From contig NZ_JACHIV010000001.1 of the NCBI RefSeq assembly GCF_014203325.1, positions 6,201,501-6,265,500 of the forward strand: a DNA stretch of 64,000 bases. The letters are read 5' to 3'. Shown here piece after piece: positions 10,268-43,695 of the stretch (position 1 is the stretch's first letter; each line of letters begins with the position of its first letter). The notes beneath the pieces were generated by a model. It was not told where the DNA came from, searched no databases, and saw only the letters and a list, made by a program, of their open reading frames with translations. The stretch is from Saccharopolyspora gloriosae. GTDB lineage: Bacteria > Actinomycetota > Actinomycetes > Mycobacteriales > Pseudonocardiaceae. Position numbers and translations under genes: made by a program.

Positions 10268-10421
10268 TCCTGTCAGCGGCGTAGCCGCTGAGCGGCGACC
10301 ACGCACGCAACCGGACCACCGGCGGGTTCTCAGTGGTTTCCCCGCGAGGACGGCTTTCTTCCTCGTGGCGGAGCCACTTGGAAAAAAGATCCCGCAGCGA
10401 GGAAACCGCTGAGGTTCCGCC
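10268..10421 (+). repeat. Dispersed convergent-gap palindrome, copy A
   Basis: Accessory hairpin 10274-10290 (CAGCGGC-gta-GCCGCTG) followed by a long nested palindrome with outer arms 10329-10345 and 10397-10413, inner arms CTTTCTTCC/GGAAAAAAG and the apical stem GTGGC-gga-GCCAC. The outer arms pair over 17 positions with two non-Watson-Crick pairs. It lies between the 3' ends of the MFS and metallo-beta-lactamase genes, in the same orientation as copies D and E. Confidence 0.85.
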
Positions 10422-10463
10422 AAGCGACCCACTGCTCAAGCCATGACCACCCGCCAGGTCACT

Positions 10464-11252
10464 TCAGCGTTCGTCGAGTTCCTTGAGGTAGGTGAGTTGG
10501 GCTTCGACGCTCCACTCCGCCGCGGTCCACACCGAGGGGTCCACGTCGGCGTAGACGATCTCCACGACCTCGCGGGCCGTGACGCGCGGGCCGTTGTTCC
10601 GCACCACCTCGCGGATCTGGCCGAGCCGCTGCTCCCGGTGCGCCAGGTAGCCGGTCGCCGCCGCCGCGACGTCCGGCAGCTCCGGGCCGTGGCCGGGCAG
10701 CGCCGCAACGCCCGCGGGCAACGCCGCCAAGGCGCGCAGCGTCGCCAGGTACGACCCCAGGTGCCCGTCCGGGTGGGCGACGACCGTGGTGCCCCGGCCC
10801 AGGATGCTGTCGCCGGTGAACACCACCGACGCGCCCTCGTGCTCGGCGCGGAAGCAGACCGAGTCCCTGGTGTGGCCGGGAGCGGCGAGCACTTCGAGCG
10901 GCACTCCCGCCGCGTCGACGACCTCGCCGTCGGTGAGCGGTTCCGCCCCGGCGCACAGCTGCGGGTCCAGCGCCCGCACGGGGGCTCCGGTGCGGGCCGC
11001 CAGCTCCGCCGCGCCCTCCGAGTGGTCGAAGTGGTGGTGGCTGAGCAGGATCAGCGACACCGGGCCGTGCTCGACGATCCGCTCCAGGTGCGCACCGTCG
11101 TCGGGCCCGGGGTCGAGCACGGCGCGCTCGTCGCCCGCGCCGATCAGCCAGGTGTTGGTGCCGTCCAAGGTCATCGGGCCCGGATTGGCGGCCAGCAGCA
11201 CCGAGGCGAACGGCGTCACCGGCCGCAGCTCGCCGTAAGCGGGGTGGGTCAC
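10464..11252 (-). CDS. Metallo-beta-lactamase fold hydrolase
   Basis: A 262-residue protein of the glyoxalase-II/MBLAC2-like branch. The zinc motif HxHxDH is SHHHFDH (His72, His74, Asp76, His77), with a further histidine in AAPGHTRDS and the TGDSILGRG aspartate. A C-terminal winged-helix-like region follows. GTG 11252 is 5 bases after the upstream NUDIX stop, and its ribosome site GAGGAG overlaps that stop, so the two genes are coupled. The homologue is Rv3677c. Possible thioester or nucleic-acid hydrolase; substrate not determined. Confidence 0.88.
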   Translation of the reverse strand: MTHPAYGELRPVTPFASVLLAANPGPMTLDGTNTWLIGAGDERAVLDPGPDDGAHLERIVEHGPVSLILLSHHHFDHSEGAAELAARTGAPVRALDPQLCAGAEPLTDGEVVDAAGVPLEVLAAPGHTRDSVCFRAEHEGASVVFTGDSILGRGTTVVAHPDGHLGSYLATLRALAALPAGVAALPGHGPELPDVAAAATGYLAHREQRLGQIREVVRNNGPRVTAREVVEIVYADVDPSVWTAAEWSVEAQLTYLKELDER

Positions 11253-11257
11253 GGGTC

Positions 11258-12097
11258 TCACTCCTCGTCCGGGTCGGCGCGGTATCCGGGGTCGCCCGGC
11301 AGCACGACGCGCCACGCGCCGTCGCGGTGCACCAGTTGCGGCAGCACCTTGCCCAGCGGGCGCTCCAGTTCCAGCGCGGCGTCGACGCTGCCGCAGGCGC
11401 CGACCTCCGACAAGGTCACCCACGTCGGCGGCAGCAGGCCGCAGCGCCGCTGCCGCCAGTCCTCCAGCGCGTCCTCGGGAGTGCGCCAGTACGCGTCCAC
11501 GGCCTCCGTGGTGACGGCGTCGGCGCGCTGCCCGGCGGGCATCGCCGCCAGGAAGAACCGGGTGTCGTACCGGCGCGGTTCGGCTTCCGGGGTCACCCAG
11601 TTCGACCAGGGCCGCAGCAGGTCGGCGCGCAGCACCAGGCCCGCGTCGGCGAGGAACCCGGCCAGCGACAGCTCCTTGGAGACCAGCCTCGGCCGCGCGC
11701 CCGCGTACGGGCAGGTGTCGGCGACGACGGACCCGGCGTCGGGCCCGGCCAGCAGGACGCCCGATTCCTCGAACGTTTCGCGGACCGCGGCGCACACCAG
11801 GGCGCGGGCGGTCGCCTCGGAGCATTCGAAGCGCCGCGCCCACCACTGCGGCGGCGGGCCGCTCCAGGCCACCGACGCGTCCGCGTCGCGGGGGTCCACG
11901 CCACCGCCGGGGAAGACCGTCATGCCACCGGCGAACGGCATGTTCTCGACCCGGCGTTGCAGGAACACCTCGGGCCGGTGCTCGCCGTCGCGCAGCAGCA
12001 CGACCGTCGCGGCGTCCTTCGGGGTCGCCGGGCGCTCGGGCCGTTCGGGAGGGACGAACCCGTCGGGCAGCGTGAGGTCCTCCGGCAGTCGCACCAT
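11258..12097 (-). CDS. NUDIX hydrolase with long insert in the NUDIX box
   Basis: A 279-residue protein. The glycine part of the NUDIX box (VFPGGGVDPRDAD) and the glutamate part (AAVRETFEESGVLLAG) are separated by about 30 extra residues, as in the NUDT19-like branch that acts on CoA derivatives. ATG 12097 is chosen because AAGGTG precedes it at good spacing; GTG 12106 is an alternative. It lies 5 bases upstream of the metallo-beta-lactamase gene and is probably cotranscribed with it. The substrate is inferred only from similarity of architecture. Confidence 0.85.
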   Translation of the reverse strand: MVRLPEDLTLPDGFVPPERPERPATPKDAATVVLLRDGEHRPEVFLQRRVENMPFAGGMTVFPGGGVDPRDADASVAWSGPPPQWWARRFECSEATARALVCAAVRETFEESGVLLAGPDAGSVVADTCPYAGARPRLVSKELSLAGFLADAGLVLRADLLRPWSNWVTPEAEPRRYDTRFFLAAMPAGQRADAVTTEAVDAYWRTPEDALEDWRQRRCGLLPPTWVTLSEVGACGSVDAALELERPLGKVLPQLVHRDGAWRVVLPGDPGYRADPDEE

Positions 12098-12246
12098 GCC
12101 GGTCACCTTAAACCGAAGAACATTCGCGAACACCCCTGTGATCAAGATCAACAAATGGGGTGGAGCCGCACCGTTTCCCCTGTCACCCGCCCACATCCCG
12201 GCCCCCACGGTCTGCGCGATGATCGGGACACGGGGACGATGACCGA

Positions 12247-13137
12247 ATGAGCGAAGCACTGCGGGTCGGGATCGTCGGAGCGGGGCCGTGGGCGAGGCGC
12301 GTCCACGCACCCGGCTTGCACGCGCACCCCGGGATGCGGCTGGCCGCCGTGTGGTCGCGGCGCCCCGACTCCGCGAAATCGCTCGCGTACCAGTACGACG
12401 CGGACGTGGCCGACGACTACGACTCGCTGCTGTCCGCCGTGGACGCCGTCGCGTTCGCCGTGCCACCGGCGGTGCAGGGCGAGCTGGCGGTCCGAGCGGC
12501 CCGCGAAGGCAAACACCTGGTCCTGGAGAAACCGCTGGCCGGCGACGTGCCCGCCGCGGAGGCCGTGGCCACCGCGGTGCGCCAGAGCGGTGTGGCGGCC
12601 CTGCTGATGCTGACCCGCCGGTTCGCGCCCGAAGTCCGGGACTGGCTCACCGGCCTGGGACACCTCGGCGGCTGGACCGGCGGCACCGCGCAGTGGCTCG
12701 CGGGCGGACTGCTCGCCGGGGACTACGCGGCGACGCCGTGGCGGCAGGAACGCACCGGGGCGCTGCTGGACGCGGGCCCGCACGCGCTGGACCTGCTCGA
12801 CGCCGCGCTGGGCCGGATCAACCGAGTGCACCACGCGCGGCGGGACAAGTCGGACACCTGGCAGATGGCCTTCGAGCACGCCAGCGGCGCCAGCAGCACG
12901 CTCACCTTGTCGCTGCGCGTACCGGTGCAACCGGCGCTGATCGAGTTCACGCTGTACGGCACGAACGGGAAGTCGCAGCTCACCGGCAGGCGCACCGCCG
13001 CGCACGAGTGCTACGCGCAGCTGCTCGACGAATTCCTCGCGATGATCCGCTCCGGCCGCACCGCCCACCCCTGCGACATCCGGCGCGGCCTGCACCTGCA
13101 ACGAGTCCTCGACGGCGTCCAACGAGCCGCCAACTGA
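12247..13137 (+). CDS. Gfo/Idh/MocA family oxidoreductase
   Basis: A 296-residue NAD(P)-dependent dehydrogenase. An N-terminal Rossmann motif VGIVGAGPWARR (about residues 7-18) and the family's EKPLAGD motif carry the catalytic-site lysine and proline. The C-terminal alpha/beta domain includes GALLDAGPHALDLLDAALG. Family members act on sugars, inositols or bile pigments, and no substrate can be assigned. ATG 12247 has a G-rich ribosome site 9 bases upstream. Divergent from the NUDIX gene, with palindrome copy B at its 3' side. Confidence 0.88.
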   Translation: MSEALRVGIVGAGPWARRVHAPGLHAHPGMRLAAVWSRRPDSAKSLAYQYDADVADDYDSLLSAVDAVAFAVPPAVQGELAVRAAREGKHLVLEKPLAGDVPAAEAVATAVRQSGVAALLMLTRRFAPEVRDWLTGLGHLGGWTGGTAQWLAGGLLAGDYAATPWRQERTGALLDAGPHALDLLDAALGRINRVHHARRDKSDTWQMAFEHASGASSTLTLSLRVPVQPALIEFTLYGTNGKSQLTGRRTAAHECYAQLLDEFLAMIRSGRTAHPCDIRRGLHLQRVLDGVQRAAN

Positions 13138-13162
13138 CGTCCCCGGCCTGTTTCAGCGGTCG

Positions 13163-13318
13163 GGTAGCGGAACCTCAGCGTTCTTCTCGCTGCGGGATCA
13201 ATTTTTCGAGCGGCTCCGCCACACGCAAAATTGCTGTCCTCGCGAGAAGAACGCTGAGAACCCGCGGGTGGTCACCTTGCTCTGGTGGTCGCTGCTCAGC
13301 GGCTTCGCCGCTGACAAG
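13163..13318 (-). repeat. Dispersed convergent-gap palindrome, copy B
   Basis: Inverted relative to copy A. Outer arms 13174-13190 and 13242-13258 form a perfect 17-bp stem. The inner arms are CAATTTTT/AAAATTG instead of the CTTTTTCCC type, so both sides have changed together. Accessory hairpin 13297-13313 (CAGCGGC-ttc-GCCGCTG). Lies between the convergent oxidoreductase gene and the Pro-rich protein gene. Confidence 0.88.
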
Positions 13319-13334
13319 CCACCGCTGATCAAGA

Positions 13335-14660
13335 TCACCTGGGTTTGCCGTCTATCGGGGGGAAGCCGCCGGTGGCGGAGCCGCCGGGCATGGTCGTGTT
13401 CCACGCGTCCTGGCCCTGGGCCTGCGCGCCGCCCGCGCCGTTGGCCACCGGCTGCGCCTGCTGCTCGCCCGAGCCGCCGCGGTCCTGTTCCCGCTGCGCC
13501 AACTCCTCGTGCAGCTTGCGCAGCAGGTTGCGCTCCCGGTCGGTGAGCTTCGCGTCGACCGCGGCGGGGACGCGGGTGTTCTTCCCGCCGCCCTGCTGCT
13601 GCGCCTGCTCCCCGGACTTCGCCTGCTCGGCGTCCGGCGCCTGCAGGTCCTCCGGGTTCACCGGGCGTTGCCGCAGCGTCGGCTCGGCGCCCTTCTCGGG
13701 CGCTTCGGCGACCGCGGTCTCCCGCACCGGCTCCGGGCGGAGCTGCTCGGGCGCCGGTTCCGGACGGGGCGCGGGGCGGGCGGGCTCGGGACGAGCCTTG
13801 GCCTCGCGATGCTCGGGGCGGTGCTCGGCCCGAGGCGGTTCCGGACGAACCGGCTCGGGGCGAACGCGTTCCGGGCGTGCCGAGTCGAGGGAGACGCTGT
13901 CAGGAACCGGGGCCTCGACGCGTCTTCCCGGCCCCGCGGCTGGCTCACTCGGAACGTCGCCGCCTCCGGGCTTGCTCCCCGCGGTGGCCCGCGGTGCCCG
14001 CGCGTGGTTCGAGGAACCGTTCGGGATCGCCACCTGCGCGACCAGGTCCAAGTGCACCCGGCGCGCGGTGGCCAGCGCATTGCGGTGGTACGGCGGCAGG
14101 TCCATCCCGCTGCTGAACACGTCCACCGAGCAGCCCACGCCGGCGCGCCGCAGCGCCTCCAGCAGCTGGTACCCGGCGGCGGTGACCGAACCGTCGGCGC
14201 CGACCTCGGCCAGCAGCACCCGACGCGGCACGGCGCCGTAGGTCACGCCCGCCGGAGTCGTCCGCCAGGTGCACCACAGCGCCCGCACCCCGTGCAGGCG
14301 TCCCGCGATCGGCGCGATCGCGTCCACCAGCTCGTGATCCGACCGGTCCGCCTCGTGGTTCTCGCTGAACCGGTGCCCTTCGTCCTGCACCGTCTCCACG
14401 ACGTGCAACCGGTCGGCGGGCGAGTGCGGCGAACCGGATTCGTCCAGCGCCCGGCGCAGGTGGTACTGCTCCGTCGAGGTCACCGGGATGCGGCCTGCCA
14501 GCAGGCAGCCGATCAGGAACTCGGCGGCCGAGTCGAGCTGACCGATGCCGAGCATCTCGCGAACCGAATTGACGGCGTCGTCGTCCACCCGGCCGGTCAG
14601 GGCCAGCAGGAGGTTGTGCAGGCGTTCCACCGGCCCCGCACCCTCAGCGACGTCCACCAC
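13335..14660 (-). CDS. Conserved protein of unknown function with Pro/Arg-rich C-terminus
   Basis: A 441-residue protein. Residues 1-215 form a globular domain (helical start VERLHNLLLALTGRV, later PPYHRNALATARRVH). Residues 216-330 are low complexity with repeated RPEP units, and the C-terminus has a charged helix (KLTDRERNLLRKLHEELAQR) before a Gly/Ala/Gln tail. The globular domain is visibly paralogous to the upstream gene product at 14696-15304. GTG 14660 has GGAGG 7 bases upstream and follows that gene by 35 bases, so they form an operon. No enzymatic motif seen. Confidence 0.75.
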   Translation of the reverse strand: MVDVAEGAGPVERLHNLLLALTGRVDDDAVNSVREMLGIGQLDSAAEFLIGCLLAGRIPVTSTEQYHLRRALDESGSPHSPADRLHVVETVQDEGHRFSENHEADRSDHELVDAIAPIAGRLHGVRALWCTWRTTPAGVTYGAVPRRVLLAEVGADGSVTAAGYQLLEALRRAGVGCSVDVFSSGMDLPPYHRNALATARRVHLDLVAQVAIPNGSSNHARAPRATAGSKPGGGDVPSEPAAGPGRRVEAPVPDSVSLDSARPERVRPEPVRPEPPRAEHRPEHREAKARPEPARPAPRPEPAPEQLRPEPVRETAVAEAPEKGAEPTLRQRPVNPEDLQAPDAEQAKSGEQAQQQGGGKNTRVPAAVDAKLTDRERNLLRKLHEELAQREQDRGGSGEQQAQPVANGAGGAQAQGQDAWNTTMPGGSATGGFPPIDGKPR

Positions 14661-14695
14661 GAATGCCTCCTTCTAGGATGCCTGCACCGGCACCG

Positions 14696-15304
14696 TCAGC
14701 CACGATGTCCCACGAGTTCGTCGGCGCCCAAGCACACCAGCGCCGACTCGGCGAGCGCGGCGCGGTGGTAGGCGGTCGGTTCCACCTCGGGTGGCAGCAC
14801 CTCGACGCACGGCTCGGTGTCCCCGAGCGCGCGCAGGATGCGTTGCAGTTCGCTGGTGAGCTCCACGGGGTCCGCGGAGCCCGTCACCAGGATGATCCGC
14901 TTGGGCCGCGTCCCCGGCAGGTGGCGCCAGGAACTGCGGGTCTCGCGCACGCCCTGCCTGCCGCGCAGCGTCGCTCCGAGCACCAGCACCGCGGGGTCGC
15001 CCTTGTCGTCCACGTGGGACTCCGCGCGGAAGGTGTACCGGTCCGGGTCCGCGCCCGGCAGCACCGCGTGCACCACGGACGGGTCGGCTCCCAGCGGCAG
15101 CAGCGCCTCGGCGAGCCTGCGGTGGTCCGCGTCGGACAGCGCGACGCGTTCTCGCACCAGCGTCGCGGGCAGCGAGCGCGCGAGCACATCGGCGGCGCCA
15201 CCCGCCAGCCAGTCCCGATAGCGCCAGAGATGCCGATCCGGCAGCCGCCCGGCAAGTCGAAGCAGCAACTCGTGGCACAAGAGGTCCGTTTCGCGTACCG
15301 CCAC
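14696..15304 (-). CDS. Conserved protein of unknown function, paralogue of the next gene
   Basis: A 202-residue protein. It aligns with the N-terminal domain of the downstream protein: CHELLLRLAGRL vs LHNLLLALTGRV, then a stretch ending in an [AS]-rich helix before RVALSDADHRRL vs RIPVTSTEQYHL, and TAYHRAALAESALV vs PPYHRNALATARRV. The central region RPKRIILVTGSADPVELTSE suggests a Rossmann-like strand. GTG 15304 is preceded by GGGAGGGG. First gene of a two-gene minus-strand operon; function unknown. Confidence 0.75.
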   Translation of the reverse strand: MAVRETDLLCHELLLRLAGRLPDRHLWRYRDWLAGGAADVLARSLPATLVRERVALSDADHRRLAEALLPLGADPSVVHAVLPGADPDRYTFRAESHVDDKGDPAVLVLGATLRGRQGVRETRSSWRHLPGTRPKRIILVTGSADPVELTSELQRILRALGDTEPCVEVLPPEVEPTAYHRAALAESALVCLGADELVGHRG

Positions 15305-15437
15305 GTCGCCCCCTCCCAGCTTCGTTCGCTCGTCACCCGGTGCGAGCGACACTCGCACCCCTCACGCCGCGAGCACTCGATCAGGGCAGACCCTCTCTCG
15401 CCGCGTAGCGGATGAGCAAGCCCGACCGATCACTCGC

Positions 15438-15451
15438 CGGTATTGATACCG
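15438..15451. promoter_or_regulatory. 14-bp palindrome in the gap upstream of 15304
   Basis: CGGTAT-tg-ATACCG lies about 130 bases upstream of the GTG at 15304, in a 300-base gene-free stretch. It could be an operator for the two-gene operon. No other element is clear between 15305 and 15605, apart from a 7-bp hairpin at 15567-15584. Confidence 0.35.
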
Positions 15452-15605
15452 CCGTTCGGGTGACCCGCGTGTGATCACTCGAAGTAGCGGCGCCCGAAGC
15501 GTACTGGTTGGTAGAGCGCTCCCGGGGCGTACCTGGCAAGAAACTCGGGCAACCCCCAGTCGAGATCCGGACCAATCGGTCCGGGCGGCCGGCGCCGGAA
15601 CGGGA

Positions 15606-15637
15606 AAGGGCCGCGGTGCCAACGCACCGCGGCCCTT
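15606..15637 (-). terminator. Terminator of the ridA unit
   Basis: A perfect 13-bp stem (15606-15618/15625-15637) with 6-nt loop, 78 bases past the ridA stop on the minus strand. Confidence 0.75.
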
Positions 15638-15714
15638 CGTCCCGCGTCGAGAGTCCGTTGTGGACCGTCGACCGACGAGCGTCCGCGAACCGGAATCCGT
15701 TCGCAGACGATCGA

Positions 15715-16173: not shown

Positions 16174-16175
16174 GG

Positions 16176-19233: not shown

Positions 19234-19254
19234 CCCGTGCTCACGACGGGCGAA

Positions 19255-31678: not shown

Positions 31679-31711
31679 GGGGGTGAGGGGGTCGTTCTGC
31701 TTTGGTGTCCG

Positions 31712-31823
31712 GGTAGCGGAACCTCAGCTTCCTTCTCGCTGCGGGATCTTTTTCCCAAGTGGCTCCGCCACGAGGGAAAAAGCTGTCCTCGCGAGAAGGA
31801 AGCTGAGAACCCGCCGGTGAGCG
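31712..31823 (-). repeat. Dispersed convergent-gap palindrome, copy C (truncated)
   Basis: Outer arms 31723-31739 and 31791-31807 form a perfect 17-bp stem, with inner arms CTTTTTCCC/GGGAAAAAG and the apical GTGGC/GCCAC stem. Same orientation as copy B. The accessory CAGCGGC hairpin is missing; instead an unrelated run of small hairpins follows (31841-31919). Lies between the convergent Old Yellow Enzyme and dps genes. Confidence 0.85.
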
Positions 31824-31840
31824 GCTTTTCGACGTGGGCT

Positions 31841-31919
31841 ATTCGCTGCGCGAATACAGGCACGGCCTTCGGCCGCAAGGCAGACTTCGCTTCGCTCGTC
31901 CACTGCACGGCTTCGCCGT
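31841..31919. repeat. Cluster of short hairpins with TTC/TGC loops
   Basis: ATTCGC-tgc-GCGAAT (31841-31855), CGGCC-ttc-GGCCG (31863-31875) and ACGGC-ttc-GCCGT (31907-31919) occur in under 80 bases between palindrome copy C and the dps terminator. No coding frame. Confidence 0.5.
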
Positions 31920-34386: not shown

Positions 34387-34404
34387 CCGGCGGAGCGCTC
34401 ACCG

Positions 34405-34558
34405 TCTTATCAGCGGCGAAGCCGCTGAGCGGCGACCCAGCACGCAGCCGGACCACCCGCGGGTTCTCAGTCGTCTTCTCGCGAGGACAGCTTTTTCCCT
34501 CGTGGCGGAGCCACTAGGGAAAAAGATCCCGCAGCGAGAAGACGACTGAGGTTCCGCC
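34405..34558 (+). repeat. Dispersed convergent-gap palindrome, copy D
   Basis: Accessory hairpin 34411-34427 (CAGCGGC-gaa-GCCGCTG), then outer arms 34466-34482/34534-34550 (perfect 17 bp), inner CTTTTTCCC/GGGAAAAAG and apical GTGGC/GCCAC. From the outer arm inward it is identical to copy E. Located between the convergent lipase and iniR-like genes. Confidence 0.9.
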
Positions 34559-34593
34559 ACCCGCCCCACCACGCAGGCCGAGGGGAAATCTCC

Positions 34594-37089
34594 TCAGGAA
34601 TCCAGCATGGTGCGTAGGCGGGTTAGCAGGTCTTCCCGGGAGGTGGCTCCGAGCCGCTGCTTGATCCGGCCGATGTGGTGCTCGACCGTCTTGGCCGAGA
34701 TGAACAGCCGCTTGCCCACCTGCTTGTAGGTGAGGCCGGACAGGACCAGTTCGGCCACCTCCCGTTCGCGTTCGCTGAGGAGGTTCTGCTCGCCCTGCTC
34801 GCCGACCGACCTCGGCCGGGCGGGTTTGCCCTGCAGGGAGCGGGCGCATTCGAGCAGCGCCAGCATCGTCGGGCGGTCGGCGGTGCGCAGCGCGGCCTGG
34901 CCCGCGAGCCGGGCTCCGTCCCAGGTGAGCCCGGCCGCGTGCAGTCCGCGCGCGGCCTGCTCGGCCTGGTCCCGGTCGACCTCGCCGGCGAGCACGCCCA
35001 GCCAGGTCTTCGCGGCGGCGGCCATCGCGGCCGACATCGGGTTGTGCGCGGCCATCGCTTCCAGCGCCGCCACGTGCGTGCGGGCGCTGTCGGCGTCCTC
35101 GCTCACGACCGCGGCCTGCAGGCACTTCCACCGCAGCAGGCCCGACCACAGCGGCGGGTCGCCGAGCTCGCCGAGCAGGGCGAACGCGGCGCGCAGGTGC
35201 GGTTCGACCCAGTCCTGGTCGTGCAGCCGCGCGCAGGACACGGCGAGTTCGCCGAGCGCGAGCAGCCCGAACAGGTCCGCCGGGTGTTCGGCGATGGCCT
35301 GGCGGGCCCGGCCGCGCACCGCGTTCAGCGCGGTCGTGTCGTTGTCGCGGTTGGCGATCCCGGCTTCGATCGCGGTGGCCAGCAGCCGGTCCCGCGCCTG
35401 CAGCGAATCCGGCGAGCACACCGCGGCGTCCAGCGCGGTGCGGGCCGCGGGGGTGTCCCCGCGGGCCAGCGGGATCCACGCCGCGAGCAACCGGTGGCGC
35501 ACCGCCAGCATCGGTCCGCCGCTGCCCGCTTCGATGGCACGCCCCACCACGGAGGACGCGACGTCGAGCTCACCGCAGTGCAGCGCCGCCAACGTCGCGA
35601 TGGCCGCGGGCGTGTCCGGGACGAGGGTGGCGCCCCCGACCGGTTCGGCCAGCGACGCGGAGCGGGTCAGCTGGGACAGCGCGGTCACGGCGCTGCCGGT
35701 GATCGATTCCCGGAGCCCGTCGACGAGCTGGTCGGTCGAGCCGGACAGCGAGGTGGGCGGCCCGGGGTCGGTGACGGAGCCCAGCAGCCCTTCCGCTTCG
35801 GCCAGCCGTCCCGTGCCGATCAGCGACACGGCGGCGTAGGCGCGGTCGCCGGGCCAGCGCAGGTGCTCCGCCGACCAGCGGCACAGCTGCGCGGAGCGGG
35901 CCGGCAGCCCGCGGTGCGCGAGCACGCTCGCCGCGACCTGCACGCCCAGCGCCCGGTCCGGCACCGATTCGTCCACGATCACCGCGTCGGCCAGCCGCAG
36001 CGCCTCGTCGAAGTTCCCGGCGATCGCGGCGGCCCTGGCGCGGCGAGCGGCCAGCCGCGCGGGCGGGGTGCCCGCGGAGACGGCGGCGTCGAAGAACCGC
36101 GAGGCGAGTTCCGGCGCCTGCTCGGCCGCTTCCACCCCGGCCTGCTCGAACGCCTCGGCCAGCGCGTCGTCGGCGGTGGCGGCCGTTTCGGATTCCAGGA
36201 AGGGGCGCAGCAGCCCCAGCACCGGACGTCCCCGGTCGAGCTGCACGCGCACCAGCTTGCGCACGATCCGCAACCGCTGGTCGACGGGGGTGAGCAGCTG
36301 CACGGCCTTGCGGACCAGCGGCAGCAGCTCGTCGGAGCCGTCGGTCAGCCCGCTCGCCCGGATCGCCGACAGCGCGGGCACGACCGCGGCCGGGTCGAGT
36401 TCGAGCAGCCAGGCCAGCACGTCGGGGTGCGCGGCGGCGCCGACGGCGATCGCGGCGGCGCACGCGCGGCCTTCCGCCCCGAGGCCGTCGATCTCCTGCT
36501 GGACCTGCTCGACGACGCGCGACGGCACGCCGCGCCGGGTGAGGTCGTGCGGCGAGAGGTCGGCGAGCACGCCCTCCACGAGGCGCGGCACGCCGCCGGT
36601 CTGCGCCAGCAGCCAGTCCAGCCATTCGGCGGGCGGTTCGGAGCCGAGACCGCGTTCGACGCGGGCGGCGAGGTCGTCCCGGGCGTACCCGGTCAGCACG
36701 ACGGGCGGCGCGGTCCGGCCCAGGGCGTGCACGAGCTCGCTGAGCTCCGCGCCGCGCGGCCACGGCCGGTAGGCGACGATCAGCCGGGCCCGCGGGTGCC
36801 GTGTCAGTTCCCGCACGGCGCGCAGCGCGGAGTCGTCGAGCCGGTGCGCGTCGTCGACGATCACGGCGGTGGTCTCCGGGTCGACTCCGGCGGCGCTCGC
36901 CGAGACCGGTACTCCGGCGGCCCGGTAGGCGGCGGCGAGCTCGTCGAGCAGGGTGGTCTTGCCGCAACCGCCCGCCGCCTGCACGCCGACCTGCACCGGC
37001 GCGGCGGGGGCTTCCGCGATCGACTCCCACAGCCGCACGGCGCGCAGGCCGGTGACCAGGTCTGGGACGGTCGCTGTCGGGTGGTTCAC
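34594..37089 (-). CDS. iniR: Large LuxR-family ATPase regulator, IniR-like
   Basis: An 831-residue STAND/LAL-type regulator. N-terminal P-loop ATPase (AAGGCGKTT, residues 38-46; Walker B AVIVDDAHRL), a long alpha-helical repeat region, and a C-terminal LuxR helix-turn-helix (LLSEREREVAEL ... LTYKQVGKRLFISAKTVEHH). Rv0339c (IniR), which activates iniBAC in mycobacteria, has the same architecture and nearly the same length. GTG 37089 has GAGGA 5 bases upstream; GTG 37122 is possible. It probably senses envelope stress and activates the divergent iniB-like promoter. Confidence 0.85.
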   Translation of the reverse strand: MNHPTATVPDLVTGLRAVRLWESIAEAPAAPVQVGVQAAGGCGKTTLLDELAAAYRAAGVPVSASAAGVDPETTAVIVDDAHRLDDSALRAVRELTRHPRARLIVAYRPWPRGAELSELVHALGRTAPPVVLTGYARDDLAARVERGLGSEPPAEWLDWLLAQTGGVPRLVEGVLADLSPHDLTRRGVPSRVVEQVQQEIDGLGAEGRACAAAIAVGAAAHPDVLAWLLELDPAAVVPALSAIRASGLTDGSDELLPLVRKAVQLLTPVDQRLRIVRKLVRVQLDRGRPVLGLLRPFLESETAATADDALAEAFEQAGVEAAEQAPELASRFFDAAVSAGTPPARLAARRARAAAIAGNFDEALRLADAVIVDESVPDRALGVQVAASVLAHRGLPARSAQLCRWSAEHLRWPGDRAYAAVSLIGTGRLAEAEGLLGSVTDPGPPTSLSGSTDQLVDGLRESITGSAVTALSQLTRSASLAEPVGGATLVPDTPAAIATLAALHCGELDVASSVVGRAIEAGSGGPMLAVRHRLLAAWIPLARGDTPAARTALDAAVCSPDSLQARDRLLATAIEAGIANRDNDTTALNAVRGRARQAIAEHPADLFGLLALGELAVSCARLHDQDWVEPHLRAAFALLGELGDPPLWSGLLRWKCLQAAVVSEDADSARTHVAALEAMAAHNPMSAAMAAAAKTWLGVLAGEVDRDQAEQAARGLHAAGLTWDGARLAGQAALRTADRPTMLALLECARSLQGKPARPRSVGEQGEQNLLSEREREVAELVLSGLTYKQVGKRLFISAKTVEHHIGRIKQRLGATSREDLLTRLRTMLDS

Positions 37090-37170
37090 AGGAATCCTCG
37101 GTTCACGGAGACCTCGTTTCACGGGTCACTCGGCAGGGGCACTCGGAGAGACGGGCGCGGGTGGTGCGGC

Positions 37171-38550
37171 TCAGCGCTGCTGGCTGGTGATCGGGCTGGC
37201 CGGTTGGGTGCCGCCCACGCCTTGCACGAGGGTCAGCACCAGGCCACCGATGATCAGCAGCGCCGCGGCGCTCAGCTTGAGGATCTTGAACAGTCGTTGC
37301 CGGTCTTCGTCCGGCGGTTCCAGGTACATCGGTTCGACCTGCACGGGCGGCCGGACGGGGGCTTCGCGCTCCGGTTCGCCGTCGATGACGTCCAGGCCGC
37401 CGGAGCCCGGACCTTCGACGCGCATCAGCACGCTCGTCTCCGCGACCGACGCGGCCTGGTCGCTCACCGAGGACAGCACTCCGACGGCCGAGACCGCCGC
37501 GCCGCGGGCCGCGACGAGCTCCGGCGCGGCGTCGACCTGCGGGGTCCGTTCGAGCCGCTCGGCGACGAGCTGCTTGGCCATCGGGGTCCGCATCGTGCCG
37601 CCCGCGAGCACCAGCGCCGAGAGGTCCTCCGGGCTCACCGCCGCGGACTGCACGGCTTGCAGCAGCAGCTCCGGAACGCGTTCCAGGTGCGGGCGGGCCA
37701 GCTGTTCGTAGCGGGAGCGGGAGATCGCGAAGTCGGTGCGCAGGTTCGGCAGGTCCACGCGGACGGTCGTTCCCGGGTGGTGGGACAGAGCTTCCTTGGC
37801 CCGGACGCAGTCGGCGCGCAGCCCGGCGAGCGCGGCGCGGTGCTCGGGATCGGCCGGATCCATCGCGTCGAGCTGGGAGCCGAGTTCGGCCCGCAGGTGG
37901 GCGAAGACCTCGTCGTCGAGGTCCTGCCCGCTCGGGTGCCCGGAGTCCAACGAGGACCCGAGCACGTCGAAGCCGGGAGCGCGGCGGCGCAGCACCGTCG
38001 CGTCGAAGCCGGTGCCGCCCACGTTGGCGACCGCGACCGCGTCCTGCTCGGCGACCTGCTGCTTGCTCGCGTAGTCGAGCGCCACGGCCAGCGGTTCGGG
38101 CACCAGCGTGAGGTCGCGCAGGCCGAGACCCGCGAGCGCTTGGCGCACCAGGTGGCTGCGGAACGGTCCCCACGCCGCGCTGTGCGCGACGGTGATGTGC
38201 TCGGCCGGGTGGCCGAGCTGCTGGGCGACGTTGTCGGCGACCCACTCGACCACGGCCGCTACCAGTGCTTGCGCGGTGACGAACTCGCTGCCGACCAGCA
38301 GGGGGGCGTCGTCGCCGACCTGGCGGGTGAATCCGCGGACGACCCACTCGTGGTGGGTCAGTTCCTGCCTGCTCGCCGGTTCCCCGGCGACGAAGGAGCC
38401 GTCCTGGACTCGGCACAGCACCGTCGGAACGGTGTGCCCGGTGGAGCTCAGCGGCAGCGGGGTGGCCGCACCCCACCTGCCGCCTTGGCGCCGCGCGATG
38501 GCGGCGGAGGTGGCCGTGGCCCCGACATGGATCCCCAGGACGTAAGGCAT
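37171..38550 (-). CDS. Hsp70-like protein with C-terminal membrane anchor
   Basis: A 459-residue protein. Its N-terminal actin/Hsp70-type ATPase has MPYVLGIHVGATATSAAIA as phosphate-1 region, NVGGTGFDATVL as phosphate-2 and LVLAGGTMRTPM as the adenosine motif. It lacks the Hsp70 substrate-binding domain. Instead a linker leads to one transmembrane helix near the C-terminus (LKLSAAALLIIGGLVLTLVQ), so the ATPase faces the cytoplasm. Transcribed toward iniR with an 81-base gap and divergent from the iniB-like gene. Likely part of the same envelope-stress system; mechanism unknown. Confidence 0.85.
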   Translation of the reverse strand: MPYVLGIHVGATATSAAIARRQGGRWGAATPLPLSSTGHTVPTVLCRVQDGSFVAGEPASRQELTHHEWVVRGFTRQVGDDAPLLVGSEFVTAQALVAAVVEWVADNVAQQLGHPAEHITVAHSAAWGPFRSHLVRQALAGLGLRDLTLVPEPLAVALDYASKQQVAEQDAVAVANVGGTGFDATVLRRRAPGFDVLGSSLDSGHPSGQDLDDEVFAHLRAELGSQLDAMDPADPEHRAALAGLRADCVRAKEALSHHPGTTVRVDLPNLRTDFAISRSRYEQLARPHLERVPELLLQAVQSAAVSPEDLSALVLAGGTMRTPMAKQLVAERLERTPQVDAAPELVAARGAAVSAVGVLSSVSDQAASVAETSVLMRVEGPGSGGLDVIDGEPEREAPVRPPVQVEPMYLEPPDEDRQRLFKILKLSAAALLIIGGLVLTLVQGVGGTQPASPITSQQR

Positions 38551-38706
38551 GCAACCCCTTCCCGTGATCACCTTCCGGGTCATCGGACGGTACTCGGGCC
38601 GCACGGCCGGGGAAGTCCGGTCACGGGGTCGAGCCGACCGCCCGATGACACTCAGGGCGGTGACAACTTAGCGCGTGTCCGATCACAAAGCGCTGACGGA
38701 TCCCCC

Positions 38707-38744
38707 CATGCGTCCCCTAACCGAGCCATGGGCGCATCCCCTAA
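38707..38744 (+). promoter_or_regulatory. Direct repeat in the iniB-like promoter
   Basis: Two copies of a CATG...GCG...TCCCCTAA motif (38707-38720 and 38727-38744, TCCCCTAA blocks 24 bp apart) lie in the divergent gap. The second runs into a plausible -10 region (TAATAGTGT). Spacing near two helical turns suggests an activator site, perhaps for the IniR-like protein. The rest of the 334-base gap (38551-38884) shows no other clear element besides a short upstream ORF. Confidence 0.45.
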
Positions 38745-38775
38745 TAGTGTTCGCACTCACTAGGAGTCGTACCCG

Positions 38776-38868
38776 ATGGCCGCGAGCACAGCCCGCAGTA
38801 GCGTGCTCGCTGGGAGTGAGGGATCGGGCACGACCTTCACTCGGTCACACGTAACCGAGTTCCGCTGA
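38776..38868 (+). CDS. Short upstream ORF before the iniB-like gene
   Basis: 30 codons, ATG 38776 to TGA 38868, with AGGAG 9 bases upstream. The product is Ser/Thr/Gly-rich and ends SHVTEFR. Its stop lies 3 bases before the AGGAG of the next gene, an arrangement suited to translational coupling. No similarity recognised; it may be a leader peptide or chance. Confidence 0.35.
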   Translation: MAASTARSSVLAGSEGSGTTFTRSHVTEFR

Positions 38869-38884
38869 GTCAGGAGAAAGCGTC

Positions 38885-40048
38885 ATGATCCACTCTCAGC
38901 CGGATGATGCCCCGGATCGTGCCGAGACCCCCACTTCCACCCCGGGGGCGCAGGACGCGCCCAGCCAGCCGGACGGCCCGACGCTGTACGAGTTCCTGAC
39001 GCGGCTCGTCACCAGCCCGGACGCACAGGCGGCCTTCGACGCTGATCCGCGCGCCACGCTGGATCACGCCGGACTCGGGGACATGAGCGCGACGGACGTG
39101 CTGCAAGCATCGTCGCTGGTGCTCGACTACGCGCCGGTCGAGATCGCGGATGAATACGGCCGCTCGCTCCAGAGCAGCGTCGAGAAGTTCGCCGCGAGCA
39201 CCCAGCATGTCGCGATCAACGAATTGCATCCCGCACAGCCACACGAGCAAGAGATGGAACTGAGCATGCTGCCTCCGCACAACACCCCGGCCCCCTCCCC
39301 CGAAGCTCCCGCCGGTGACACCAACATCGACATCGAGCAGAACGACTCGCACAACCTGATCAGCGTGCACGACGTGCTCAGCGGCAACGACGTCGCCAAC
39401 GGCGTCGGCAACGTCGTGGGTGACACCACCTCCGACGCCACCAACACGGTCGACAACACCGTCAACACCGTTGGCGACGTGACCGGCGACGTGACCGGCA
39501 CCGTGGGCGACGTGACCGGCACGGTCGGCGACGTCACGGGCGCCGTGGGCGACGTGACCGGTGCCGTGGGCGACGTGACCGGCGTTGCCGGTGACCTGAC
39601 CGGCGCTCTGCCCGCCGGTGCCCCCGCCGGGATCGAGGGTGGCGCCCTGTCCGGCGTCGCCGGTGGCGCGCTGGACACCGTGGGCGACGTGGCCGGCGGC
39701 GTGCCGGTCGCCGGTGACATCGCGGGCCCGGCCGTCGACACCGTCGGTGGCGTGGCCGGTGGCGCCGTGGGCACCGTCGAGGGCGTCGCCGGTGGAGCCG
39801 TCGACACCGTCGGTGGCGTGGCCGGTGGCGTCGTGGGCGGCCCGGTCGCCGACGTGACCTCCGCGCTGCCCGCGCCGGCCGACCTCCCGGTCGTCGGTGA
39901 CGTGGCCGAGCAGCTGCCGGTCGACGACGTGGTCTCCCACCTGCCGGCCCCGAGCGACCTGCCGGTCGTCGGCGACATCGCCGGCCCGGCCGTCGAGGAC
40001 GTCGCGGGTGCGGCCACCTCGGCGCTGCCGCTGGACGGCCTGCTCTGA
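38885..40048 (+). CDS. iniB: IniB-like repeat protein
   Basis: A 387-residue protein. Residues 32-115 form an IniB-type N-terminal domain (LYEFLTRLVTSPDAQAAFDADP), followed by a low-complexity Gly/Val/Asp/Thr region: heptads GDVTG[TA]V at about 197-238, period-11 units (VGGVAGG) at 287-317, and two copies of a LPAP.DLPVVGD block near 328 and 353. No signal peptide or transmembrane helix is evident. In M. tuberculosis IniB is a glycine-rich protein induced by cell-wall inhibitors. AGGAG lies 8 bases before ATG 38885. Followed by a strong terminator rather than running directly into iniA. Confidence 0.75.
   Translation: MIHSQPDDAPDRAETPTSTPGAQDAPSQPDGPTLYEFLTRLVTSPDAQAAFDADPRATLDHAGLGDMSATDVLQASSLVLDYAPVEIADEYGRSLQSSVEKFAASTQHVAINELHPAQPHEQEMELSMLPPHNTPAPSPEAPAGDTNIDIEQNDSHNLISVHDVLSGNDVANGVGNVVGDTTSDATNTVDNTVNTVGDVTGDVTGTVGDVTGTVGDVTGAVGDVTGAVGDVTGVAGDLTGALPAGAPAGIEGGALSGVAGGALDTVGDVAGGVPVAGDIAGPAVDTVGGVAGGAVGTVEGVAGGAVDTVGGVAGGVVGGPVADVTSALPAPADLPVVGDVAEQLPVDDVVSHLPAPSDLPVVGDIAGPAVEDVAGAATSALPLDGLL
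39473..39598 (+). repeat. In-frame 21-bp tandem repeats within the iniB-like gene
   Basis: Five to six near-identical 21-bp units encode GDVTG[TA]V heptads. Third-position differences between units show that the peptide pattern is conserved more than the DNA. Confidence 0.8.
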
Positions 40049-40084
40049 TTCCAGGCCCCCGGGCTTGATCAAAGCGAATTGACC

Positions 40085-40125
40085 CGAAAGCCGGGTTCGC
40101 ACTCCTCGTGCGAACCCGGCTTTCG
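40085..40125 (+). terminator. Strong terminator between iniB-like and iniA-like genes
   Basis: A perfect 18-bp stem (40085-40102/40108-40125) with 5-nt loop, 37 bases after the iniB-like stop. Confidence 0.85.
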
Positions 40126-40203
40126 CGTTACCACACCACAGTCCTGACACAAGTCACCCGCTCGGGTTTCTCTTCTGCCACTGAACGGTCCACAATCGCT
40201 CCT

Positions 40204-42015
40204 GTGATCGAGACGGCGATGGTGGAACTGATCGATCGCGCGACTGCCGAATGCGCCGAGCAGCAGCGCCCCGACCTGCACAACCGACTACGGCAGATCC
40301 GCACGCGCGTCCTGGACCCAGCCCAGCTCGTACTGGTCGTGGGAGAACCGAAGCAGGGCAAGAGCGAACTGATCAACGCGTTGGTCAACGCCGCCGTGTG
40401 CGACTCCGGCGAAGACGCCACCACGCTCGTGCCCACTCTGGTGCGCCATTCCGAGCACCCCACCGCCCAGGTGATCGAGCAGGAACCGACGAGCGGGCAC
40501 GCCACCCTCGACCGGTTCCCGGTGCCCGTGGAGCAGGTGCGGGAACGCATCGACCAGGCCATCAGCAGCGGCAGGCCGGTCAGCCGCGGCGAAGTCGGCA
40601 TTCCGCGCGCCGTGCTCAAGGACGGCCTGGTGCTGATGGACACGCCGGGCGTCGGCGCCACGTCCGCCACGCTCACCGCCCGCACGCTCGGCGTCGTCGC
40701 CGAAGCCGACGCGCTGCTGATCGTCTCCGACGCGACCCAGGAACTCACGCACAACGAGCTGAGCTTCCTGAAGAAGGTCACCAAGCTGTGCCCGAACGTG
40801 GCCGTCGTACAACCCAAAACAGACATAACGCCGCATTGGCGAAAAGTGGTGGAAGTCAATCAACGCCACCTCGCGGGCGCGGGCATCAACACCAAGATCT
40901 TTCCGGTGTCTTCCACGATTCGGATGCAGGCGATGCACGCGAAAGACGCCACGCTCAACACCGAATCCGGATTTCCGCAGCTGGTCGAATACCTGCGCGG
41001 CGAAGCACTCGGGCAGCACGATCAACTCACCCGGCGGCTCGTGGCGCAGAACGTCGCCGACGCGGTCGACGAGCTCAGCGAAACGTTGAAAGCGGAACTC
41101 ACCGGACAAAGTCCGCGAACCGCCGCGGAAACGCTGATCGAACTGGAAACCGCCCAACGCCGCTCCGAAGATCTGCGGCGGGTCACCGGGCGCTGGCAGA
41201 AGACGCTCAGCGACGGCGTCGGCGAAATGTTCGCCGACATCGAGTTCGACTTCCGGGAACGCAGCTGGGCCATCACCGGCCAGATCGCCGAGACGCTCGA
41301 AGAAGCCGACCCGGTGGTCGTGTGGGACGACTTCGTGGAGTGGCTCGACAACGCGCTCATGACCGCCATCGAGGAGAACTTCGCCTGGCTCGAAGGACGC
41401 CGCGAGCAGCTGCGCGACCGGGTCACCGACGAATTCCTGCGCGAGCACCCCAGCATGCGCCCGCAGATCGAGCAGGTGTCCATCCCGGACCCGTTCGACC
41501 AGGTCACGCCGTTGAAGAAACCCAGCAACGGCACCTACAAGCAGCTCGACCAGGTGCTCACCGGGCTGCGCGGCTCCTACGGCGGCGTGCTCATGTTCGG
41601 CCTGATCACCAGCATGGCCGGGTTGCCGCTGATGAACGTCGTGTCCATCTCCGCGGGCCTGCTGCTGGGCAGCCGCAGTCTCAACGAGGAGAAGGACGCC
41701 CGGCTGCGCCGCCGCCAGGCCGAGGCCAAGACGACCGCGCAGCGCTACGTGGAGCACGTCGTGTTCCACGTGAACAAGGAGGCCAAGGACGCCATCCGGG
41801 CCACGCACCGCGCGCTGCACCAGCACTTCACCCAGCTCACCGAGGAAGCGCAGTTGGAGATCAGCAAGGACATCCAGAACATCAAGCGCGTCGCCGAGCG
41901 CAGCGCCGTCGACCGCGAGGACCGGGCCCGCGAGATCCGCCGGAAGCTGGAAGAGCTGGCGCTGCTGCGCAGGCGCGCCGGGATGCTGACCGCGAACCGC
42001 ATCACCGCGGCATGA
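40204..42015 (+). CDS. iniA: Dynamin-like GTPase, IniA-like
   Basis: A 603-residue bacterial dynamin-like protein. G1 loop GEPKQGKS (48-55), G3 DTPGVG (Asp146), G4-like QPKTDI, then a helical stalk and a hydrophobic paddle with membrane-inserting helices (GGVLMFGLITSMAGLPLMNV, residues 460-490). Mycobacterial IniA is a GTPase that remodels or fissions membranes under drug stress. GTG 40204 is chosen; CACAAT 7 bases upstream could be a -10 box of a leaderless message, and ATG 40219 is an alternative. Overlaps iniC by 4 bp. Confidence 0.88.
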   Translation: MIETAMVELIDRATAECAEQQRPDLHNRLRQIRTRVLDPAQLVLVVGEPKQGKSELINALVNAAVCDSGEDATTLVPTLVRHSEHPTAQVIEQEPTSGHATLDRFPVPVEQVRERIDQAISSGRPVSRGEVGIPRAVLKDGLVLMDTPGVGATSATLTARTLGVVAEADALLIVSDATQELTHNELSFLKKVTKLCPNVAVVQPKTDITPHWRKVVEVNQRHLAGAGINTKIFPVSSTIRMQAMHAKDATLNTESGFPQLVEYLRGEALGQHDQLTRRLVAQNVADAVDELSETLKAELTGQSPRTAAETLIELETAQRRSEDLRRVTGRWQKTLSDGVGEMFADIEFDFRERSWAITGQIAETLEEADPVVVWDDFVEWLDNALMTAIEENFAWLEGRREQLRDRVTDEFLREHPSMRPQIEQVSIPDPFDQVTPLKKPSNGTYKQLDQVLTGLRGSYGGVLMFGLITSMAGLPLMNVVSISAGLLLGSRSLNEEKDARLRRRQAEAKTTAQRYVEHVVFHVNKEAKDAIRATHRALHQHFTQLTEEAQLEISKDIQNIKRVAERSAVDREDRAREIRRKLEELALLRRRAGMLTANRITAA

Positions 42016-43490
42016 GCAGGCCGGACACCCCCCAGGACGGCCTGCTGGAGCGGTCCCGCGCGCTGCTGATCCGCACGATGACGTTCTACCGGGACGACCC
42101 GCGCACCTCGGCCTGGCTGCGCGGGCGGCTGGAACGGCTCGAGCAGCCGCTGCGCATCGCGGTCAGCGGGCGGGTGAAGTCCGGGAAGTCGACGCTGATC
42201 AACGCGTTGGTGGGCCAGCACCTCGCGCCGACCGACGCCGAGGAGAGCACCCAGGTCAACACGTTCTACCAGTACGGGCCGGAACCCCGGATCACCGTGC
42301 ACACCCCGCACGGGGCGGTGCAGAACGTGCCGGTGACGACGCTGGACCCGAGCACGATCCGCGACCTGCAGCGCTGGCGCCCGGACGAGGTGTCGCGACT
42401 GGTGATCGAGGCCCCCGCGCCGGGCCTGCAGGCCATCACGCTGCTGGAGACGCCCGGGGTGTCGTCCTCGGCGATGCAGGACACGGGCCGCTCGGCGCTC
42501 GCGCAGATCCTGTCCGAGGCGGACGCGCTACTCTACCTCACGCGCTACCCGCAGCAGACCGACGTGCAGTTCCTGCAGTCGGTGCACGAGTTGCAGCTCG
42601 CGCGGCGCGCGCCGATCAACACGATCATCACGTTCTCCCGCGCCGACGAGATGGGCAACGGCGGCAGCGGCGCAGTGGCGGCGGCAGAGCGGATCGCGCT
42701 GCGGTTCCGCGACGAGCCTGCGGTGCGGTCGTTCACGCAGTACGCGATCCCGGTGATCGGGCTGCTGGGGCAGGCCGCGGCCACGTTCACCGAGGCGGAC
42801 CTCGCCGCGCTGGTGGCGTTGCGGCAGTTGCCGGAGAAGGCGTTGGAGACGCTGCTGCTGTCCTCCGACCGGTTCTCGAACAACCCCACGCCGGAATCGG
42901 TGCCGCCGAGCGTGCGCCAGGACCTGATGAACCGCTTCGGGCGGTTCGGCCTGGCCCAGGCGTTCACCGCGCTCGGCGAGGGCATCACGGACCACAAGCG
43001 GCTGAGCGCGACGCTGCTGGAGGCGAGCAGGCTCAACGACCTGCAGGAAGCGGTGCACCAGCAGTTCATCGAACGCCAGGACGCGCTGCGGGCGCGGTCG
43101 GTGCTGCTGGCGGTGGACATGGTGCTGCGGGCGAACCCGCGGCCCGGCGTGCAGCAGCTGCGCGGGGAGTTCGAGCGGCTGCTGTCGAACGCGCCGGAGT
43201 GGGAGGAGATGCGGCTGCTGTCGGCGTTGCAGTCCGGTCAGCTGAGCTTCCCGCGACCGCTGCAGAACGACGCGCGGCGACTGCTGGGGTCGCACGGCCC
43301 GGGCGCGGCGGCCCGGCTCGGCCAGGAACCGGACACCCTGGAGTCGATCTTGGCGGACGAGGCGGGCGCGGCGCTCGCGCGGTGGCGCGACCAGGCGGTG
43401 AACCCGCTGCACGACCGAGCCCACCGCGACGCGGTCCGCGTCGTGCTGCGCAGCTGCGAACGGCTGATCGCGTCCCGAGTCCAGCCCTGA
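42012..43490 (+). CDS. iniC: Dynamin-like GTPase, IniC-like
   Basis: A 492-residue partner GTPase. G1 loop SGRVKSGKST (52-61); the G3 motif reads LETPGVS, with glutamate in place of the usual aspartate; the G4-like region is TFSRADE. No strongly hydrophobic paddle, so it is probably peripheral and acts with IniA. The start is fixed by an ATGA overlap with iniA. Its 3' end runs into sequence resembling the edge of the palindromic repeats (TGAGAACCCGCC at the stop), with copy E 50 bases later. Confidence 0.87.
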   Translation: MSRPDTPQDGLLERSRALLIRTMTFYRDDPRTSAWLRGRLERLEQPLRIAVSGRVKSGKSTLINALVGQHLAPTDAEESTQVNTFYQYGPEPRITVHTPHGAVQNVPVTTLDPSTIRDLQRWRPDEVSRLVIEAPAPGLQAITLLETPGVSSSAMQDTGRSALAQILSEADALLYLTRYPQQTDVQFLQSVHELQLARRAPINTIITFSRADEMGNGGSGAVAAAERIALRFRDEPAVRSFTQYAIPVIGLLGQAAATFTEADLAALVALRQLPEKALETLLLSSDRFSNNPTPESVPPSVRQDLMNRFGRFGLAQAFTALGEGITDHKRLSATLLEASRLNDLQEAVHQQFIERQDALRARSVLLAVDMVLRANPRPGVQQLRGEFERLLSNAPEWEEMRLLSALQSGQLSFPRPLQNDARRLLGSHGPGAAARLGQEPDTLESILADEAGAALARWRDQAVNPLHDRAHRDAVRVVLRSCERLIASRVQP

Positions 43491-43540
43491 GAACCCGCCC
43501 GTGAGCTTGCCGCGCCAAGCAAGCGACATCACCGACCATC

Positions 43541-43695
43541 GTCCTGTCAGCGGCGAAGCCGCTGAGCAGTGACCAGCAAAGCAACCGGCACCGCCGCGGG
43601 TTCTCAGTCGTCTTCTCGCGAGGACAGCTTTTTCCCTCGTGGCGGAGCCACTAGGGAAAAAGATCCCGCAGCGAGAAGACGACTGAGGTTCCGCC
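43541..43695 (+). repeat. Dispersed convergent-gap palindrome, copy E
   Basis: Accessory hairpin 43548-43564, outer arms 43603-43619/43671-43687 (perfect 17 bp), same inner and apical stems as copy D. The 85 bases from arm to arm are identical to copy D. Located between the convergent iniC-like and fur genes. Confidence 0.9.

Follow-up and report, generated by a model that had tools for sequence, protein, structure and literature searches.

A mobile structured element at gene 3′ ends of Saccharopolyspora gloriosae and other Pseudonocardiaceae, tentatively read as a one-way transcript barrier

A stretch of 64,000 nucleotides of the Saccharopolyspora gloriosae genome (assembly GCF_014203325.1, contig NZ_JACHIV010000001.1, positions 6,201,501 to 6,265,500; hereafter, the window) carries five copies, A to E, of a long nested palindromic element. 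We describe the parts and placement of this element, its copies elsewhere in the genome and in relatives, the changes in its arms, and the strand to which its fold appears to belong. All five copies lie where a sequence-only reading of the window had placed them, A, D, and E on the + strand and B and C on the − strand, and a pattern scan of a 400-kb stretch containing the window found these five and no others within the window. Our gene calls, which come from our own codon-usage gene finder and not from the annotation, divide the window into 12 convergent gaps (the number counted earlier as well), 12 divergent gaps, and 31 tandem gaps; all five elements are in convergent ones.

Read in one orientation, the element consists of a linker, a long nested hairpin, and a tail common to the five copies, with a head hairpin, CAGCGGC-n3-GCCGCTG, in four of five. 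The head is found in A, B, D, and E; only C is without it, as had been noted from the sequence, and has an array of short hairpins instead. The outer arms are 17 nt long and of the form CTCAG-n7-CTCGC. Their n7 portions are perfectly paired in B, C, D, and E, with one n7 common to D and E, and imperfectly in A, where n7 has a single T·G and CCCGC/GCGAG a single C·A. One base of the apical repeat is changed in B. The two copies that were folded as RNA, D and B, have z-scores of −8.0 and −6.9 against shuffled sequences. The tail of A reaches the stop codon of the gene at 10464-11252 (−). The features of the five copies, in window positions, are:

10268-10462, + strand: element A (head, linker, long nested hairpin, tail); outer ends approximate
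10274-10290, + strand: head hairpin of A, CAGCGGC-GTA-GCCGCTG
10329-10345, + strand: left outer arm of A
10397-10413, + strand: right outer arm of A; two of its pairs with the left arm are not Watson-Crick (a T·G and a C·A)
13147-13333, − strand: element B, in the convergent gap 13138-13334; ends approximate
13174-13190, − strand: arm of B (right arm in element orientation)
13242-13258, − strand: partner arm of B (left arm in element orientation)
13297-13313, − strand: head hairpin of B
31680-31890, − strand: element C, of the second head type (short-hairpin array replacing the CAGCGGC hairpin); ends approximate
31723-31739, − strand: arm of C
31791-31807, − strand: partner arm of C
34398-34401, no strand: CTCA on the left side of D, which may form a 4-bp target duplication together with 34593-34596; the stop codon (TCA) of the right gene is part of it
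34402-34592, + strand: element D; the orthologous gap of the relative G001, 16 nt long, is without it
34451-34457, + strand: GACCACC, the left one of the short direct repeats that flank the hairpin of D
34466-34482, + strand: left outer arm of D, CTCAG-TCGTCTT-CTCGC
34534-34550, + strand: right outer arm of D, GCGAG-AAGACGA-CTGAG
34593-34596, no strand: CTCA right of D, in the stop codon region of the gene at 34594-37089 (−)
43520-43724, + strand: element E, absent from the orthologous gap of G001; ends approximate
43603-43619, + strand: left outer arm of E
43671-43687, + strand: right outer arm of E
43742-43779: conserved terminator-like hairpin of the host, downstream of E

The second head type (window 31808-31900 in C, and many other copies in this genome) is a short GC-rich hairpin array of variable length, in which the linker-adjacent hairpin varies on both sides (ATTCGC/GCGAAT, ATGTGC/GCACAT, ATGCGC/GCGCAT).

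The genome is a single contig of 6,825,909 bases. A pattern for the core of the right arm, allowing up to 3 mismatches, matches it 342 times (159 on the + strand, 183 on the −), and the reversed pattern, used as control, matches 0 times; the five copies are therefore not a product of chance. Gene context was taken from a 2.0-Mb sample, composed of one 400-kb block around the window and 80 spaced 20-kb stretches, which holds 106 elements, 98 of them with both halves. An apparent run of + copies in the list of genome matches looks like a listing effect, since the sample has both strands there. Convergent gaps hold 52 of the 106, tandem gaps 46, and divergent gaps 5; of the remaining three, 1 falls within a called gene and 2 at the edges of stretches. 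From intergenic space alone, 15.7, 54.5, and 32.8 would be expected in the three kinds of gap. Counted by gap, 48 of 310 convergent and 45 of 1076 tandem gaps carry an element. Convergent gaps are over-represented and not exclusive: the claim that no element lies elsewhere is true of the window and false of the genome, and the 46 tandem copies rule out placement in convergent gaps only. The 400-kb block is itself unusually convergent (19 convergent, 5 tandem); the spaced stretches contribute 33 copies in convergent, 41 in tandem, and 5 in divergent gaps, plus 1 in a gene and 2 at edges. The window owes its convergent-only pattern partly to local chance, added to a rule that is real.

That rule is the gene 3′ end, not the convergent gap. 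The tail faces a gene 3′ end in 72 of the 95 gap-placed copies having both halves. Among these 72, the distance from the hairpin to the facing stop codon is 10-56 nt in 59 and 33-46 nt in 47. When copies were slid at random inside their own gaps, a mean of 21.6 of 71 fell in the 10-56 nt range, and the maximum of 1000 trials was 31. Genomes with few copies (n = 15) follow the same rule: the tail-side gene reads toward the element in 26 of 27 loci, which amount to about 19 independent sites because 12 of them form 4 orthologous groups. There, 22 of the 27 copies are tandem and 5 convergent. Ten of the tail-side proteins belong to ordinary genes: metK, gatB, recA, murC, gcvP, benB, and thiolase, acyl-CoA dehydrogenase-like, and P450-like genes (gatB stands for two of the five gatB loci tested; gcvP is a fragment that falls short of the full model's curated cut-off). 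A tail-side transposase gene was considered and rejected, as none of the few-copy tail-side genes, ten by their proteins and seventeen read by eye, is a transposase. There is no replication-strand bias (18 + and 24 − on the right replichore, 32 and 32 on the left).

The elements are mobile, subject to dispersal and turnover, and we call them so because orthologous gaps are empty in relatives. A 95%-identical relative, Saccharopolyspora sp. NFXS83 (G001), has neither D nor E in the orthologous gaps. Its assembly is a draft, in which absences need care; the D site there is a clean 16-nt gap, and the ends of E are less clean. A third copy (block position 232852) is also absent, with a short tail-side arm remnant left behind. 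C is represented by one arm, in the same orientation and with a different n7, at the point where a contig of the relative ends inside the hairpin. A more distant relative (G002, about 90% identical) was compared over 400 kb, where S. gloriosae has 24 copies and G002 has 22. Of the 21 mappable from S. gloriosae, 12 gaps hold an element in G002 too and 9 do not, the gap of A being an empty 37 nt; of 19 mappable in the other direction, 12 are shared and 7 are not. The element has the opposite orientation in 5 of the 12 shared gaps, C among them, so the same gene ends have been struck more than once or the element has been flipped. The idea of a mobile palindrome that survives only in convergent gaps is right about mobility and wrong about survival, since 46 of 103 gap-placed copies are tandem.

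The marks of insertion are uneven. A possible target duplication is clean at D only (CTCA on both sides), the other empty sites not being clean, and a simple pattern finds CCTGTCTTTGATC-like left ends that match the right tail, as terminal inverted repeats would, in 8 of 52 anchored copies; the others are without them. Three side observations were made. In NFXS83, a draft contig (locus L189) ends at its start within a hairpin copy, and these elements may be a cause of breaks in short-read assemblies of the genus. In G002, the gap orthologous to block position 9880 (about 6,069,880) has an open reading frame that resembles, by eye, an IS481-type transposase adjoining an element copy; this frame is absent from S. 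gloriosae. Finally, at loci L346, L353, L340, L352, and L062 the hairpin contains a module of about 50 nt, ending in ATGAGGGGTGGTGGTCGGGCTGGCGGGTGGG or close to it, in one of two positions depending on the genus; this is a small element nested within the larger one.

Selection on the fold, as proposed earlier, is well supported. Among 139 non-redundant copies of the genome, the n7 arms are perfect in 119 and comprise 22 distinct perfect heptamers; with shuffled partners the mean is 10.4 perfect, and no trial of 200 exceeds 20. On either side of n7, CTCAG and CTCGC are nearly constant in these copies, and the internal loop is asymmetric and nearly invariant, with GAGGAC(A/G) on the left in 136 of 139 and ATCCCGCA on the right in 133 of 139. 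Between genera, the CTCAG and CTCGC segments switch together. In an alignment of 34 copies from this genome and relatives (A3, which drops 4 of the 38 rows of A2, namely L044, L062, L066, and L082, whose halves were out of register, shortened, or carried an extra base), 97.1% of cells are paired. Both sides have changed in 16 of 32 pairs (shuffled mean 12.6; 3 of 500 shuffles reach 16), and double-changed cells number 177, versus 53.7 when shuffled and at most 41 in slid controls. Arm variants go in part with the type of head and of inner stem, which indicates descent from subfamilies together with recombination; in a few chimeras the two arms come from different subfamilies and do not pair (for example, CGTTCTT with AAGACAC). 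The short direct repeats flanking the hairpin change together as well, with 6.24 of 8 positions identical versus 5.23 when shuffled. These repeats (GACCACC or GCACCGC; columns 2-9 and 205-212 of alignment A4) co-change between genera and are unpaired.

Could the arms match because copies convert one another? The conversion-like chimeras are real for a few copies, and ectopic gene conversion as the whole cause fails at loci behind gatB. In genus g56, 5 of 7 species examined carry an element behind this gene in the same place, and the other two genomes carry it elsewhere. Three of the five (G122, G095, and G142) have one copy each found by the covariance model at E 0.01; these are drafts of about 10, 20, and 100 contigs, in which a second copy could be hidden. 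Their arms differ among them by 2-8 bases per arm. Within each, 16 of 17 pairs are Watson-Crick and one is T·G, and arms exchanged between them give on average 12.0 Watson-Crick pairs and 2.3 wobbles. Of the other two, G187 (4 copies) has 17 of 17 paired, and G173 (2 copies) pairs worse, with 13, 1 wobble, and 3 mismatches. The 50-nt head and linker of the gatB copies are 86-94% identical, versus 22-38% in the 60 nt just outside (both ungapped), and the left flank aligns poorly. With a single copy and no other element in sight as template, the gatB arms are best read as compensatory evolution in place.

The fold also carries a signature of strand. A change from C-G to T-A can pass through T·G or through C·A. 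Counted on the head-to-tail strand in 72 copies outside S. gloriosae, T·G or G·T occurs 84 times and C·A or A·C 17 times; merged by pair and genus, the counts are 55 versus 15 (p 1.7e-6). The count rests on 72 of 90 rows, the remaining 18 being weak matches, second matches, or matches on the reverse strand, and excludes two constitutive G·T pairs. Unpaired columns show C-to-T at 4.5% and G-to-A at 6.9%, the wrong direction for an explanation by mutation bias. The excess of G·T over A·C on one strand suggests that the selected fold is single-stranded, and it appears, from these alignments, to belong to the head-to-tail strand. This is the template strand of the gene touched by the tail, and the fold would therefore not be primarily a hairpin in the 3′ untranslated region of that gene's own mRNA.

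The element is a feature of the family Pseudonocardiaceae. A covariance-model scan finds it in at least 55 of 200 genomes of the family and at least 13 of 46 genera; in large searches the model (R1) scored the best 14-17 candidates per genome, and these counts are lower bounds that may miss weak carriers. Across the order, all 18 positives among 249 genomes belong to the family, and 0 of 24 genomes outside it match by pattern. Viral contigs gave no exact match of the core pattern, and plasmids and phages no match of copy D. No Rfam family matches it at the gathering threshold, the window giving one tRNA only, and relaxed searches of four other loci and the gap of E returned sub-threshold matches only. 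Among the literature matches listed, none is a publication on this element.

The closest known kind is the REPIN, a mobile hairpin built from repetitive extragenic palindromic (REP) sequences. Passages of one REPIN study describe compensatory changes as common (PMC3116915); in other sources, REPs prefer convergent and unidirectional gaps downstream of genes (PMC3733652) and RAYT transposase genes are flanked by REPs (PMC2817692). The element resembles these in being extragenic, repeated hundreds of times per genome, mobile, placed downstream of genes, and compensated in its arms, as far as those passages describe them. It differs from a REPIN in being much longer and nested, with a head, a tail, and a nearly invariant asymmetric internal loop, and in its tail against stop codons, its orthologous single copies kept between species, and its strand signature; for REPINs in SBW25, a random distribution over extragenic space is described. 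Beside the hairpin, the reverse strand reads GGGT(A/G)GCGGAACC (compare the REP tag GT(A/G)G), with a C/T polymorphism (44 C and 27 T of 71); this stretch is on the strand opposite to the selected fold. The Y1 transposase domain Y1_Tnp (PF01797) is absent from S. gloriosae (G000), G001, G002, and G003, the four with most copies among the genomes counted and a difference from REP/RAYT systems, and from G018. It occurs in 5 (G004, G005, G010, G017, and G030) of 13 carriers, a number that includes S. gloriosae, in 6 of 47 non-carriers, and in 8 of 23 further carriers. A RAYT-driven REP was rejected, as Y1_Tnp does not track the element. A retro-element with its own reverse transcriptase was likewise rejected: RVT_1 was not found in S. 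gloriosae, and is present in 24 of 60 relatives, G001 included.

Streptococcus BOX, RUP, and SPRITE repeats are short non-autonomous intergenic miniature inverted-repeat transposable elements (MITEs) with nested insertions and terminator-like structure, according to passages of PMC10969869. The element is like them in each of these respects, as far as those passages go, and unlike MITEs in being mostly without clear terminal inverted repeats, in lacking a consistent target duplication, and in having no parent insertion sequence found, Y1_Tnp and RVT_1 being the families searched. A further comparison is with integron attC sites, strand-specific folded hairpins in which structure rather than sequence is kept. 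The element shares the strand-specific fold and the kept structure; it differs in having no AAC/GTT boxes recognised by eye and in lying at chromosomal gene ends.

We tentatively favor, at less than even confidence, a non-autonomous mobile structured element of Pseudonocardiaceae that acts as a one-way transcript barrier. The element, made of head, long nested hairpin, and tail, would insert as a rule with its tail against a stop codon. RNA polymerase would enter it in the head-to-tail direction, as read-through from a convergent gene or as antisense transcription from the promoter region of a neighbor; the RNA made would fold into the nested hairpin and be terminated or cut there, before the polymerase enters the gene. 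In this manner, the gene whose stop codon adjoins the element would be shielded from opposing transcription. The element would be spread by an enzyme acting in trans and persist where the barrier is useful or harmless. We infer the head-to-tail RNA and its termination or cutting at the hairpin; the lack of replication-strand bias is compatible with a role in RNA.

Several results weigh against such a barrier. Within S. gloriosae alone, the wobble excess is weak (16 versus 7, p 0.09, after four copies with at least 3 non-Watson-Crick outer-stem pairs were set aside), and in 18 of 41 tandem copies it is the head rather than the tail that faces the upstream gene. At 21 of the 27 few-copy loci both neighbors read right to left, and a head-to-tail RNA there would need an antisense promoter; no conserved promoter was seen by eye upstream of the gatB copy. 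The hairpin is followed by no U-run on either strand, as read by eye, of the kind an intrinsic terminator has, and a separate conserved terminator-like hairpin is kept in some gaps (E, and the copy at block position 281495).

The choice between the barrier and a hairpin for transposition is one of judgement, the latter close behind. A fold that matters as single-stranded DNA for a strand-specific recombinase, as in REPINs or attC sites, is possible, if not probable; the host would gain nothing, and the 3′-end location would reflect target preference and the loss of harmful insertions. Copy number and turnover fit it, as do the possible 4-bp duplication at D, the fixed orientation toward the stop codon, the direct repeats that co-change on both sides as two processing sites would, and the REPIN precedent of compensatory changes, in the passages cited above. 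It sits poorly with the missing Y1_Tnp of the five genomes named above, with the lack of replichore bias, and with gatB, where in-place compensation and retention are seen in one-detected-copy genomes, in which mobility should not pay. A symmetric hairpin working on both strands between convergent genes, as bidirectional terminator or cruciform supercoil relay, is the kind of role first proposed for the element. The excess of convergent gaps and the very stable hairpin speak for it, yet the wobble asymmetry indicates a single strand, the internal loop, which hardly varies, lacks symmetry, and tandem gaps hold 46 of 103 gap-placed copies (22 of 27 in few-copy genomes, which also contradicts the supposed restriction to convergent gaps); we consider it unlikely.

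A family of trans-acting structured RNA genes, amplified to many copies like a bacterial short interspersed element (SINE), would account for the strand-specific fold, the constitutive G·U pairs, and the nearly invariant internal loops. It is quite unlikely, given that no conserved promoter was seen by eye before the head at gatB, the lack of a locus common to carriers (even the gatB copy is in 5 of 7 g56 genomes), the failure to find RVT_1 in S. gloriosae though it occurs in relatives, and the lack of an Rfam match at threshold. Mutation alone might also pair the arms: template switching by DNA polymerase corrects imperfect palindromes, copying one arm from the other without selection, and the 119 of 139 perfect arms are what it would leave. 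It predicts perfect pairs on both strands, however, not an excess of G·T on one, and would erase the asymmetric internal loop that is kept in 136 (left) and 133 (right) copies. The strand asymmetry largely refutes it, and we hold it highly improbable.

Two further observations concern other parts of the window. Imperfect 21-nt tandem repeats (GGCGACGTGACCGGC...) occupy 39431-39868, within the open reading frame 38885-40048. The stretches 57824-57909 and 58879-58964, each of 86 nt, are 83% identical and perhaps an old local duplication; the former ends just upstream of the gene 57934-58410, which has a DUF6247 match.

What bacterial palindromic repeats do, and whether they are selected as DNA or as RNA and on which strand, is an open question in the field. 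The actinomycete family studied here bears a heavy load of structured gene-end elements that have no Rfam model, with 342 copies in one 6.8-Mb genome. A broader statement, of which we are doubtful, would be that a family-wide mobile structured RNA element inserted at stop codons has become, by domestication, a boundary that blocks transcripts one way, with a strand-specific fold kept by in-place compensation even at one copy and no REP-type transposase driving it. Wobble asymmetry names the strand, and multi-copy genomes stand beside genomes with a single detected orthologous copy, which makes mobility and host function separable.

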